Assembly (NCBI GenBank): GCA_013389015.1
Contig: JACAEE010000156.1
Location: 1-64,000 of the forward strand
Reading direction: 5' to 3'
DNA length: 64,000 nt
DNA from: Hydrogenophilaceae bacterium
Lineage (GTDB): Bacteria > Pseudomonadota > Alphaproteobacteria > Caulobacterales > Aquidulcibacteraceae
Of the stretch, positions 7,550-45,502 are shown in pieces (within the stretch, counting starts at the first letter, position 1; each line of letters opens with the position of its first letter). The position numbers and the translations under genes are program-made. The notes beneath the pieces are model-generated. The model was given only the letters and a program-made list of their open reading frames with translations. It did no database searches and was not told the DNA's origin.

Positions 7550-7629
7550 TCTTGATCCCTCGCGTACTGGCTCTCGGCGACATTCTGCACGGATGCCTTA
7601 ATGTGATACGCGCGAGGGAGCCGAAGCCC

Positions 7630-8211
7630 TCAGATTTTTGAGCTGTCCGGGTCGGGCGCGGCCGCGCCGCTCGCTTCAAGCGCCTTCCGCGCACGATAGA
7701 CCCTGACTTCGACGGCCTTGGCGCTTAGCCCGAGCAGGGCGCCCGCCTCGGCGTGGGAAAGCCCGTCAAGGGCGGTGAGGATCAGCGGTTCCTTCAATCC
7801 GGAAGGCAGCGCTGCGATGGCGGTTTCGAGCCGCGCCAGTCTGGGTTCGAGATCGTTCGCTTCTGGCTCCGACTGCCGCACCGCGCGCGCGCCGGGATCA
7901 TCCAGACTGGCCGCGCCAAAAAAGAACTGACGCACACGCCGTTTGCGCGCCCAATCGCGACACTTGTTGAGCGCTATTCTGCGCAGCCAGGCGCCGAACG
8001 GACGCTTGGCGTCGTAACTGGCGAGCCCAGCCCAGGCGGCGACGAAGGCGTCTTGAAGCAGATCATGGGCTTCATGAGCGTCGCCGAGATTGGCGCGGAT
8101 GAAGCGATAGAGCGGTCCTTTGTGGCGGCGCATCAGCTCGGTGAAAGCGCGGTCCTCGCCCCGCCGCGCGGCCAGGGCGAGCGCGGCGTCGTCGCGGCCC
8201 TCCGCGATCAT
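7630..8211 (-). CDS. ECF sigma factor, CnrH-like (copper operon)
   Basis: A 193-aa ECF sigma factor. Region 2 shows LMRRHKGPLYRFIRANLGD, DLLQDAFVAAW and RIALNKCRDWARKRR. Region 4 shows ALPSGLKEPLILTALDGLSH followed by AGALLGLSAKAVEVRVYRAR. It directs RNA polymerase to stress promoters when released from its anti-sigma factor. The gene overlaps the CnrX-like gene by ATGA, and sizes and order (89, 146 and 193 aa) match the CnrY-CnrX-CnrH system of Cupriavidus. The copper genes downstream suggest copper as the inducer. Confidence 0.92.
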   Translation of the reverse strand: MIAEGRDDAALALAARRGEDRAFTELMRRHKGPLYRFIRANLGDAHEAHDLLQDAFVAAWAGLASYDAKRPFGAWLRRIALNKCRDWARKRRVRQFFFGAASLDDPGARAVRQSEPEANDLEPRLARLETAIAALPSGLKEPLILTALDGLSHAEAGALLGLSAKAVEVRVYRARKALEASGAAAPDPDSSKI

Positions 8212-8648
8212 TCGGGATCGGAGGTCAGCGCCGCGACGACGGTATCGTCAAAAATCGCCTTCTGCTCATCGTCGAGCACATCGCGCATGGCGAAGATGTG
8301 GGCGATCGTCTCGGTCTGGAGGCGTCCCATGGCGTCGTGAAAGTGCTCGACGGCGACGCGGACGCGCGGACCGTAGCCCTGCTCGGCGCGGATCGCCGCT
8401 GCGAGCTCAGCGTTCGCCGACTGCATTTCCAGTTCCAGCGCCCGGCGCCGCGCGGCGAATTCGTCTTCCAGCGTCTCGATGCGCGTACGCTGTTCAGCCG
8501 TGAGGTTCAGACGTTCATGCACGACCTCGTGGACGGACGGCGGCGCGTGCGGCCGCGCCAACACGTTCATGCCGAGCCACACGCCGGCGAAGCCCGCGAT
8601 CAGAGCGATCGCGGCGGTCGCAATCAGTCCGCGCGGGGTTAGGCTCAC
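8208..8648 (-). CDS. CnrX-like periplasmic heavy-metal sensor
   Basis: A 146-aa protein with an N-terminal membrane anchor (GLIATAAIALIAGFAGVWLG) and a helical periplasmic domain of the CnrX/metal-resistance (Spy-CpxP-like) family. HEVVHERLNLTAEQRTRIETL, VEHFHDAMGR and ETIAHIFAMRDVLDDEQ contain the His/Glu/Met set used for metal in that family. CnrX holds the anti-sigma factor until metal binds. The gene starts with GTG overlapping the anti-sigma stop (GTGA) and overlaps the sigma start by ATGA. Confidence 0.85.
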   Translation of the reverse strand: MSLTPRGLIATAAIALIAGFAGVWLGMNVLARPHAPPSVHEVVHERLNLTAEQRTRIETLEDEFAARRRALELEMQSANAELAAAIRAEQGYGPRVRVAVEHFHDAMGRLQTETIAHIFAMRDVLDDEQKAIFDDTVVAALTSDPE

Positions 8649-8914
8649 CGGCCGGTCTCAAGCAAGGTGGAGGGCGCCAGTGCGCTATGCACGGCAAATG
8701 GAGAGAGATCAGCGCGCGCGCTGGCGGCCGCGCCGCCGCCGGCGACCACGCCAATGGAGAGGACGACGGCCGCCATGGCGGTGCGCCATGCCCAGGCGCC
8801 GCGCTCTGGCTCGCGCATCGCCTCGATGCGCCGCCACACCTCGGCTTCCAATTGCCCGAGGCGAACGCCGTCCGTTCGTGTCCTCAGCGCTTCGAACAAC
8901 GTGTCCAAATTCAT
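8645..8914 (-). CDS. CnrY-like anti-sigma factor
   Basis: An 89-aa protein with a cytoplasmic N-terminal half (LGQLEAEVWRRIEAM), a single membrane helix (AMAAVVLSIGVVAGGG) and a short periplasmic tail (FAVHSALAPSTLLETG). This is the layout of CnrY, which binds its sigma factor in the cytoplasm and CnrX in the periplasm. It is the first gene of the long minus-strand copper run. A second homologue at 21737-22003 shares LEA(E/D)VW(R/S)R and the tail pattern, which supports both calls. Confidence 0.75.
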   Translation of the reverse strand: MNLDTLFEALRTRTDGVRLGQLEAEVWRRIEAMREPERGAWAWRTAMAAVVLSIGVVAGGGAAASARADLSPFAVHSALAPSTLLETGR

Positions 8915-9010
8915 GTCTCACCGCCGCCTTGTGCGCCCTCGCGATAGAATTACGCGCGCGCTTTGGGAACCCCTCATGAGGGATCGCCGCTGTCCCTGCG
9001 TAGGACACAT
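8915..9010. promoter_or_regulatory. divergent control region with 12-bp palindrome
   Basis: This gap lies between the minus-strand anti-sigma/sensor/sigma/cop run and the plus-strand DUF411 gene. It contains the perfect palindrome CCCTCATGAGGG at 8971-8982, immediately after TTTGGGAAC. GGGAAC resembles the -35 element of many ECF-dependent promoters (GGAAC-type), but I could not fit a convincing -10. Control of both directions from here is inference. Confidence 0.4.
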
Positions 9011-20749: not shown

Positions 20750-21097
20750 TCAGATCGCTCGTGGAGGCCGGAAGAGGTCGTGTAGCGGCCCGCTTGGCGG
20801 CGGGTGCTGGCCCAGTTCCAGGTAGCTCGCAGAAATGGCGGAGAACAGGAGCGCGCTGGGCGACGGCAGAGGCGCGATCGCGGTTGCCGTGCGGCAGGAC
20901 ATGCCGACGGCGCAGCTGGTCATCTTGCCGCCATCGTCATCCTGAACGGGCGCGCCGTCTTCATCGTCGCAGCAATCGTGCATGCCGCCCGCCGATTGGC
21001 CCTGTTGCATCGGGCAATCCTGGGCCGCGGCGGCGTTCGTCACGCCCCCGAGACCCAAGGCAAGAGCCGCAAACAGGGTAAACAGAACCCGGCGCAT
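20750..21097 (-). CDS. Small exported Cys-rich protein, function unknown
   Basis: A 115-aa protein with a signal peptide (FTLFAALALGLGGVTNAAAA) and a Cys/Asp-rich middle: QDCPMQQGQ, MHDCCDDEDG, SCAVGMSC. A weak hydrophobic stretch (SALLFSAISASYLELG) follows and the protein ends in a Pro/Arg tail. Such small DUF2946-like proteins often head cusCBA operons, but I cannot assign a family. I take ATG 21097 (MRRVLFTLF) instead of the upstream GTG because it gives a proper signal peptide. The DCC/SC pattern suggests metal binding. Confidence 0.65.
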   Translation of the reverse strand: MRRVLFTLFAALALGLGGVTNAAAAQDCPMQQGQSAGGMHDCCDDEDGAPVQDDDGGKMTSCAVGMSCRTATAIAPLPSPSALLFSAISASYLELGQHPPPSGPLHDLFRPPRAI

Positions 21098-21288: not shown

Positions 21289-21735
21289 TTAACGCTCCTC
21301 AGCGGCGCGGAGCAATTCGGCGCGCACAATGTCGTCGAAACGCGCTTGCTGGCGCTCGTCCAACACGGCCCGCATTTCGAACACGTGCCGCACCGCCTCC
21401 TGCTGCGTCTGGCCCATGGCTTCGTGAAATCGCGCAATGGCGCGATCGAGTCGCTCGGAAGGTTCATGATCTTCATGGATCGCCGCTGCGATCTCGCGCG
21501 CTGCGGCGCGCATCTCCGCATCAAGCGCTGTCCGCCGCTCGGCATGGCGCGCCTCAATTTCTTCCAGCGCGCGATTCTGCGCTTCGCTGAGATCGAGTTC
21601 GCGATGGACCGCTGCGTCAAGCGAGAACCTGGCGCTGGCGCGCTCGGCAAGCTTCAAACCAACCGCGACGCCGGCGGCCCCAGAGGCGAAGCCAACGAAG
21701 GCGGCGATCGCGAGCGTCCTCCAGATCGAGCGCAT
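21289..21735 (-). CDS. Second CnrX-like periplasmic metal sensor
   Basis: A 148-aa protein with an N-terminal helix (LAIAAFVGFASGAAGVAVGL) and a periplasmic helical domain: AAVHRELDLSEAQNRALEEI, ARFHEAMGQTQQEAVRHVFE, MRAVLDERQQARFDDIV. It parallels the sensor at 8208-8648 (H-E-L-DLS/NLT, FHEAMG/FHDAMG, MR(A/D)VLD). ATG 21735 follows the anti-sigma stop (TAG-C-ATG); the track used an upstream TTG. It would pair with the CTG-start anti-sigma gene and, across the divergent gap, with the sigma factor at 22194. Confidence 0.82.
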   Translation of the reverse strand: MRSIWRTLAIAAFVGFASGAAGVAVGLKLAERASARFSLDAAVHRELDLSEAQNRALEEIEARHAERRTALDAEMRAAAREIAAAIHEDHEPSERLDRAIARFHEAMGQTQQEAVRHVFEMRAVLDERQQARFDDIVRAELLRAAEER

Positions 21736-21736
21736 G

Positions 21737-22003
21737 CTAGCCGCCAAGTACGGTGGCCGGCGCCATGGGCTGGGTCAACGCGAAGGGACTGGGCTCGTGG
21801 GCTACAACCGCGCCCGTGGCGAAGGCGCCCATGGCGCCGGTTCCAAGCGCGACTATGGCCAGTAAGGAGAAGACCGCCGACTGCGATGGGTGCGTCGAGC
21901 GGCGCGCATCAACGCGGGACCAAACGTCGGCCTCAAGATTGGATAAGTCGCTGTCGATCTCGGCGCGGCCGAGTGAAGCTAGGTGTCGGTCGAGTTCGCT
22001 CAG
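21737..22003 (-). CDS. CnrY-like anti-sigma factor with apparent CTG start (absent from ORF track)
   Basis: An open frame on the minus strand gives an 88-residue product. It starts at CTG 22003 (LSELDRHLASLGRAEIDS), then SNLEADVWSRVDA, a membrane helix (VFSLLAIVALGTGAMGAFA) and a tail FALTQPMAPATVLGG. It aligns by eye with the first anti-sigma factor (LEAEVWRRIEA; helix; FAVHSALAPSTLLETG). No ATG, GTG or TTG exists in this frame between the upstream stop and the conserved region. AGGGAGG lies 7 bases before the CTG, which supports CTG initiation. A sequencing error upstream is the alternative. It sits one base before the CnrX-like ATG. Confidence 0.72.
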   Translation of the reverse strand: MSELDRHLASLGRAEIDSDLSNLEADVWSRVDARRSTHPSQSAVFSLLAIVALGTGAMGAFATGAVVAHEPSPFALTQPMAPATVLGG

Positions 22004-22193
22004 CTTCGCCTCCCTGCGGCGCGTGTATGTATGGATACGCGCCGACGCCGCCGTCCCCTGGTCAAGCTATTGGATACGGGAGGGCATGGGCAAGGGCGGG
22101 AATTTTCGCTGCTGTTGATCGAGCGCAACGCCGGACCCAGAAGCCCCCGCCAAAAGGGATGTGAGCACTACCCAATCCTTGGGGAGGGACCCC

Positions 22194-22838
22194 ATGACGC
22201 AAGGCCTAGCCAGTGTGCGATTGGATGCAGTCAGCAGCCCAAGACGCGCCCCGCCTGCCCGCGCCGATGGCGAGGCCGACCTCATTGCGCGCGCGCAGAA
22301 AGGCGATCGGCGCGCCTTTGCGGCGTTGATGGGCGCCCACAAGCACGATCTTTATCGTTTTGTTCGCCGTCGCGAACGGGATGCTGATGAAGCCTACGAC
22401 GTTGTGCAGGAGGCGTTCGTTTCGGCCTGGAGCGCAATCGCCAGCGTCGATCCCGAGCGCCCGTTTCGGGCGTGGCTGCGGACCATCGCACTCAACAAAT
22501 GCCGCGACCGAGGCCGCCGCGCCGGCGCGCGGCGCGCAGTCTGGAACCTGTGCGCCGCGGAAGAAGACCTCAAGCTGGCTGACGAGCGGCCGAGCCCGGA
22601 AGAGGAGACGGCCGATCGCAATGAACTCGCACTCTTGCGCCGAGCGCTCGAAGCCCTGCCGAACCATCTGCGCGATGCGCTCATGCTAACGGCGGTCGAC
22701 GGGCTCTCACAGGCGGCCGCCAGCGCCACGCTCAAATGCACGATCAAGGCGCTTGAGTATCGTGTGTTCCGTGCGCGCGAATTGTTGGCGATCGAGATGC
22801 AGCGCCTCGGCGTGAGGCGGGGAGCTGCTCAGGAATAA
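22194..22838 (+). CDS. ECF sigma factor, CnrH-like, divergent from its sensor genes
   Basis: A 214-aa ECF sigma factor. Region 2: FAALMGAHKHDLYRFVRRR, YDVVQEAFVSAW, TIALNKCRDRGRR. Region 4: ALPNHLRDALMLTAVDGLSQ and SATLKCTIKALEYRVFRAR. ATG 22194 has GGGGAGGGA just upstream and is preferred over GTG 22161. Its probable anti-sigma/sensor partners are transcribed the other way from a ~190-bp shared gap, unlike the first set where all three are in line. It may control the cus operon beyond them. Confidence 0.9.
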   Translation: MTQGLASVRLDAVSSPRRAPPARADGEADLIARAQKGDRRAFAALMGAHKHDLYRFVRRRERDADEAYDVVQEAFVSAWSAIASVDPERPFRAWLRTIALNKCRDRGRRAGARRAVWNLCAAEEDLKLADERPSPEEETADRNELALLRRALEALPNHLRDALMLTAVDGLSQAAASATLKCTIKALEYRVFRARELLAIEMQRLGVRRGAAQE

Positions 22839-44833: not shown

Positions 44834-45502
44834 ATGGCGCAGCTGCCCAATGCCGCACGAGCTTTGTCGACAAGCCAAACGTCAAGTCTGGCCCGCGCCC
44901 AGCGCGCGGACGCCTGGCGCGCTCGGCCGCGTAGAAGCGAGACACTTGGCGTGAGCGGGGAGGAGGAACTGGCGCAACGCGCCAAAGCAGGCGATCGTTC
45001 GGCGTTTTCCGCCTTGATGGGGCTCCACAAGCACGGCCTCTATCGTTTCGTGCGGCGCCGGACCGCAAACCCCGAGGACGCCTATGACGTCTTGCAAGAG
45101 GCGTTTGTCTCAGCCTGGCTGGCGCTTGAGCGGTATGACCCGAAGCGTCCGTTGGAGGCGTGGCTTCGCGTAATCGCACTCAACAAATGTCGCGATCACG
45201 CACGCCGGCGCGCTGTACGCCGCGCAGTCTCGGGCGCCGCGCCGGGCGGGGGCGCGGCGGAGGCGCCGGACACCGCCCCATCGCCGGAAGAGGAAATCAT
45301 CGCGCGCTCCGAATTTGACCGGGCTCAACGCGCGCTCGAAGCGCTTCCGCATCATCTGCGTGAAGCGCTCGTCTTGACCGCAGTTGAGGGGTTTTCGCAA
45401 GCAGAAGCAGGTGAGGTGCTTGGCTGCACGGCCAAGGCGGTCGAGTATCGGGTGGCGCGCGCACGTTCTATGCTCGCGGCAAGAATGATGGACGAGGGCT
45501 GA
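44834..45502 (+). CDS. Third CnrH-like ECF sigma factor, no visible anti-sigma partner
   Basis: A 222-aa sigma factor closely like the one at 22194: FSALMGLHKHGLYRFVRRR, YDVLQEAFVSAWLALERYD, VIALNKCRDHARR, then ALPHHLREALVLTAVEGFSQ and AVEYRVARARSML. It has a ~40-residue extension before the sigma core. No CnrY- or CnrX-like gene lies beside it. It is 34 bp upstream of the acetate kinase operon and could control it. Alternatively it answers to one of the two CnrYX pairs in the copper region. Confidence 0.9.
   Translation: MAQLPNAARALSTSQTSSLARAQRADAWRARPRRSETLGVSGEEELAQRAKAGDRSAFSALMGLHKHGLYRFVRRRTANPEDAYDVLQEAFVSAWLALERYDPKRPLEAWLRVIALNKCRDHARRRAVRRAVSGAAPGGGAAEAPDTAPSPEEEIIARSEFDRAQRALEALPHHLREALVLTAVEGFSQAEAGEVLGCTAKAVEYRVARARSMLAARMMDEG

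Follow-up and report, generated by a model that had tools for sequence, protein, structure and literature searches.

A gene for an 88-residue putative anti-sigma factor, here termed Y2, begins with CTG on the minus strand of the window, as we call the whole 64,000-nucleotide stretch of DNA analysed. By comparison across genomes, Y2 is a functional gene, since its counterparts in eight other genomes begin with the same CTG, and its CTG start is well supported. We consider it quite probable, taking the reading as a whole, that Y2 is functional and CTG-initiated and that it is the first gene of a promoter-driven Y2-X2 unit; that its weak start serves to limit the amount of Y2 is less certain. The features on which the argument turns are as follows.

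21737..22003, minus strand: Y2, 88-residue putative anti-sigma factor, with CTG start at 22003-22001 and TAG stop at 21739-21737; based on orthologues, profile search, alignment and codon-position pattern.
22009..22015, minus strand: Shine-Dalgarno-like AGGGAGG, 5 nt ahead of the Y2 CTG; in the orthologues GGAGG is equally far from the CTG.
22036..22061, minus strand: ECF-type promoter motif CCAGGG-N16-CGTA, 32 nt before the Y2 CTG; similar in type and distance at the orthologues and at ATG-starting relatives.
21289..21735, minus strand: X2, CnrX/NccX-like periplasmic metal sensor (Metal_resist PF13801, E 1.9e-10; NccX 4clv, E 4.4e-8; CnrX 3zg1, E 3.1e-7).
22194..22838, plus strand: H2, CnrH-like ECF sigma factor, divergent to Y2-X2 (among solved structures CnrH 4cxf matches best, E 4e-29).
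8645..8914, minus strand: Y1, paralogous putative anti-sigma factor with ATG start, homologous to Y2 and first gene of a Y-X-H operon.
8208..8648, minus strand: X1, CnrX-like sensor (CnrX 4wwb, E 1.1e-17), its GTG start overlapping the Y1 stop.
7630..8211, minus strand: H1, CnrH-like sigma factor in the same Y-X-H operon, 45% identical to H2.
8951..8976, minus strand: promoter motif TGAGGG-N16-CGTA of the Y1-X1-H1 operon.

The translation of Y2 (minus strand, 22003-21737; 88 residues) has LSELDRHLASLGRAEIDSDLSNLEADVWSRVDAR at its N-terminus and SPFALTQPMAPATVLGG at its C-terminus, directly followed by the stop; its opening residues are LSELDRHLASLG and its last are APATVLGG. The frame stays open for 21 codons 5' of the CTG, as far as a TAG, and contains no ATG, GTG or TTG upstream of the CTG and none before codon 58, its first in-frame ATG. 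The initial annotation had described just this, a frame lacking the three usual starts in which AGGGAGG precedes a CTG, and we find it confirmed, with a spacing of 5 nt. Common gene callers skip CTG-started genes owing to their start lists, and the expectation that Y2 would be missed holds for callers restricted to ATG/GTG/TTG. The ATG of X2 at 21735 lies one base past the Y2 stop codon; as Y2 is real with a CTG start, this sensor is orphaned in appearance only, as had been proposed, and X2 shows that an 'orphan' metal sensor can be an annotation artefact.

Homology of Y2 to the factor at 8645-8914, at first judged by eye, is substantiated by a search of the window's own genome, which matches Y1 (8914-8645) to Y2 with E 2.5e-6 and 34% over residues 19-86, and by a profile of the Y family, which recovers both; they are the only two Y matches in this genome at E <= 0.001. 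The common motif, helix and tail noted at that stage are all visible in the family alignment, as LEA(D/E)VW, a hydrophobic helix and SPFA...AP(A/S)T, respectively. Searches of Pfam and NCBIfam assigned the Y protein to no family. The predicted structure of Y2 comprises helices 3-13, 23-37 and 42-61, with a block pLDDT of just 42-60 past residue 40; the first helix starts at residue 3, directly after the CTG, and pLDDT is 88 over residues 1-10. Y2 is predicted to be a single-pass membrane anti-sigma factor and is a putative brake on a metal-stress switch.

What can be discerned from its relatives about the start? Our first search covered 101 genomes, comprising the window's own and its relatives, and found the Y protein family in 31. 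The orthologues of Y2 (E 1e-16 to 1e-18) stem from eight genomes of g11, another genus of the same family, which consist of MAGs named Hyphomonadaceae, Caulobacterales or Alphaproteobacteria; they are 45-51% identical to Y2 and match it from residue 1. In the homologue alignment that the initial annotation had called for, the starts of the relatives fall on the same column, with CTG at the identical position in all eight g11 orthologues and in the window, that is 9/9 of the clade, and with GGAGG 5 nt ahead in each of the eight. An upstream ATG combined with a frameshift in related genomes, which would have spoken against the CTG, was looked for and the opposite was found. Among the eight, variable sites are distributed 28/19/56 over the three codon positions, the pattern of a translated frame. 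In L009/L061 an in-frame TGA lies five codons 5' of the CTG, so that the CTG is the only NTG codon near the start there. The neighbouring sister clade (L019, L125, L145 and L146) has GTG at the same column, in more distant relatives an ATG lies no more than one or two codons away, and the conserved protein sequence (LDR.L..L) opens two or three residues past the start codon in CTG, GTG and ATG relatives alike. The start codon of Y2 is conserved between species, differs from ATG, GTG and TTG, and is the only plausible one. A plasmid search with the g11 Y protein returned zero matches.

Does this conserved codon carry a regulatory meaning? CTG could be the true start without any, if a strong Shine-Dalgarno sequence tolerates any NTG codon and the CTG drifted in once and stayed by chance, a serious contender that in our estimate falls somewhat short of probable. 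It accords with the single origin of CTG on the tree, with the membership of eight of the nine clade members in one genus, where they are 81-98% alike, and with the GTG of the sister clade, which shows that other NTG codons are tolerated; moreover, CTG is an ordinary leucine codon too, so that its retention alone is weak statistical evidence. However, CTG was kept from the window's genus to g11 while about half of the other shared-residue codons differ (identical just 42-51% of the time), so that recency alone does not account for the shared CTG, and none of the nine has reverted to ATG or GTG, which are far commoner starts.

A further argument against mere chance comes from gene layout. An order-wide search of 398 genomes retrieved 60 further loci. 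Where the sigma gene is divergent from Y-X, all 13 loci have a non-ATG start (nine CTG, four GTG), whereas same-strand Y-X-sigma operons have ATG in all 86 resolved cases (85 plus L143), although, with few evolutionary events behind the table, 13/13 versus 0/86 is not to be taken as a count of independent cases. L143 had been a candidate divergent locus with ATG and was dropped as such, being an operonic locus whose own sigma gene is cut by the contig end; L137 and L163, the latter with an ATG four codons upstream, are counted in neither group. In the sigma tree the divergent loci cluster together (96/86), with the CTG loci (99/98) and the GTG loci (94/93) as separate subgroups. As the CTG clade is one lineage, the association of layout and start may rest on a single historical event.

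That translation begins elsewhere, at an upstream non-NTG codon, by a frameshift from another frame, or at a downstream codon yielding a shorter protein, appears improbable. The g11 orthologues do offer an in-frame TTG at codon 11 and, in most cases, a GTG at codon 14, and most of them carry a short out-of-frame GTG leader, but the window has neither such a leader nor an alternative among its early codons, the leader frame is broken in L061, and protein conservation opens just past the CTG column in the ATG-starting relatives as well. Codons upstream of the CTG, in turn, sit in the promoter: CGTA and the start codon are 29-32 nt apart in CTG loci and mostly 25-36 nt apart in ATG loci, so that codons further 5' would fall in or before the -10 element and are unlikely to be transcribed, leaving no room for an upstream start. 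Even less credible is the loss of an ATG through gene decay or misassembly, since, fragmented as the window's assembly is (172 contigs, 83% complete), the same codon stands in eight separately assembled genomes and the frame is intact, with a coding-type substitution pattern. The leader itself, seven codons long, lies just 5' of Y in L060, L035 and L062-L066, its TGA overlapping the CTG start (CTGA); the idea that it serves as a coupling device in g11 was dropped, as it is absent from the window and from L061. L053 (G034 C16) has a second, truncated Y copy, consisting of the C-terminal half only and followed by an X2-like gene.

Nearly all relatives have TGAGGG-N16-CGTA upstream of Y, in place of which the CTG clade has (C/T)CAGGG-N16-CGTA (N17 in one). 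Within the window, AGGG-N16-CGTA occurs at 15 sites (in 7607-8977 and 22061-62965) versus 0.27 expected, and with spacers of 12-14 or 18-20 the counts are as expected by chance. The motif faces Y in 9/9 CTG loci, and a sigma-facing motif was found in none of the ten divergent loci first examined, that of H2 included; in the three later GTG loci, the motif of L125 faces Y, and L145 and L146 miss the pattern, although in both GCGTA stands where it would be expected. CTG loci also have slightly more secondary structure in their leader region (mean -16.3 versus -12.0 kcal/mol), a difference that base composition alone may explain. Three of the window's 15 sites are of the TGAGGG type and are grouped at Y1-X1-H1, at a gene for a multicopper-oxidase-like protein and at one for a small secreted protein; ten are of the (C/T)CAGGG type and are spread 5' of DUF308, PPDK-type, GAPDH-like, phosphoketolase, M50 peptidase and cyclopropane-synthase-like genes.

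Two further neighbourhoods deserve mention. Near 21202-21178 a site akin to those above, CAAGGG-N17-CGTA, stands ahead of a gene at 21097 and of the genes 20675-14771, whose sequences suggest a CusCBA-type efflux system. The first of these, 20750-21097 on the minus strand, sits behind this site between X2 and the efflux-like genes; its small product has several cysteines (HDCCDDEDG), a signal-like segment at the N-terminus and no Pfam family. A third CnrH-like sigma factor (44834-45502, plus strand) is 57% identical to H2 and groups next to the divergent clade on the sigma tree; no Y gene is recognisable adjoining it.

How might the Y2-X2 unit work? Y2 would be translated first, its CTG initiation aided by AGGGAGG. 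From gene position and by analogy with CnrY, we infer that Y2 binds H2 and most likely keeps it at the membrane, and metal on X2, relayed to Y2, would relieve this hold. Two sigma specificities likely exist within the one window, and free H2 would transcribe the genes behind (C/T)CAGGG-N16-CGTA, including Y2-X2 itself. The motif at 22036..22061, most likely read by H2, would drive Y2-X2 and not H2, so that induction would lift brake and sensor without lifting the sigma factor; with no such motif ahead of H2, activation would give negative feedback only. In Y-X-H operons, by comparison, the sigma factor would rise together with Y. The weak CTG most likely keeps Y2 low, so that a constant amount of H2 is not overwhelmed by the negative feedback, and would restore the balance. 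Such a dosage role is plausible given the link between start codon and layout, more likely relative to the sigma factor than to the sensor, for which the initial annotation had invoked it; that CTG was retained for this reason we hold to be nearly an even call. More tentatively, start-codon strength may be part of the circuit: once the sigma gene had moved out of the Y-X-H operon, and out of the loop by which it fed back on itself, Y would have acquired a weaker start, GTG or CTG, and retained it, an IF3-sensitive codon would set how strongly the brake acts, and one Y might also restrain the unpaired H2-like sigma factor at 44834-45502.

Of the known systems, CnrYXH and NccYXH of Cupriavidus metallidurans are among the closest, with a small single-helix Y followed by an X sensor; X2 matches CnrX and NccX by sequence, H2 is best matched by CnrH, and a similar AGGG...CGTA motif stands ahead of cnrY in C. 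metallidurans CH34. They differ in that their sigma gene lies downstream in one operon, whereas H2 is divergent and has no promoter motif ahead of it (the paralogue at 8914-7630 keeps the order Y, X, H), and in that Y2 starts with CTG instead of ATG. Y2 had been called CnrY-like, and this stands for position, size, layout and one predicted hydrophobic helix, but not for sequence: hhalign of the family profile against CnrY gave a probability of 8-10%, CnrY was also absent from the results of the PDB profile search, and the name is therefore one of analogy only. The Y-X-H operons with an ATG start in this order, 8914-7630 among them, share the Y, X and H families and the promoter type with the Y2 locus, and are distinguished from it by a sigma gene under the same operon promoter, by a -35 element TGAGGG instead of (C/T)CAGGG, and by the ATG of the 86 resolved loci.

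Of the start codons of bacteria about 0.024% are CUG, which is a poor initiator (PMC11497404). In the dnaA leader, a CUG with a Shine-Dalgarno sequence is bound in vitro and unused in vivo (PMC8443254), but that leader, unlike the Y2 start region, also offers an AUG. In the open-access literature we found no CTG-started anti-sigma gene. The nearest precedent is the SigR-RsrA pair of Streptomyces, likewise an ECF sigma/anti-sigma pair in which an unusual start codon is conserved: 32 of 34 species have GTC at the start of sigR, replacing it by a canonical start raises SigR above RsrA, and sigR is repressed by IF3 (PMC5472188). There the weak start is on the sigma factor and the pair is cotranscribed, whereas here it is on the anti-sigma factor, and ratio control and IF3 repression are results for sigR. 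That a regulatory gene has retained its CTG start in more than one genus argues that such starts are in use and that selection may favour them, and the Y2 locus, as the mirror image of Streptomyces sigR, provides a ready test of start-codon tuning of the sigma/anti-sigma balance.
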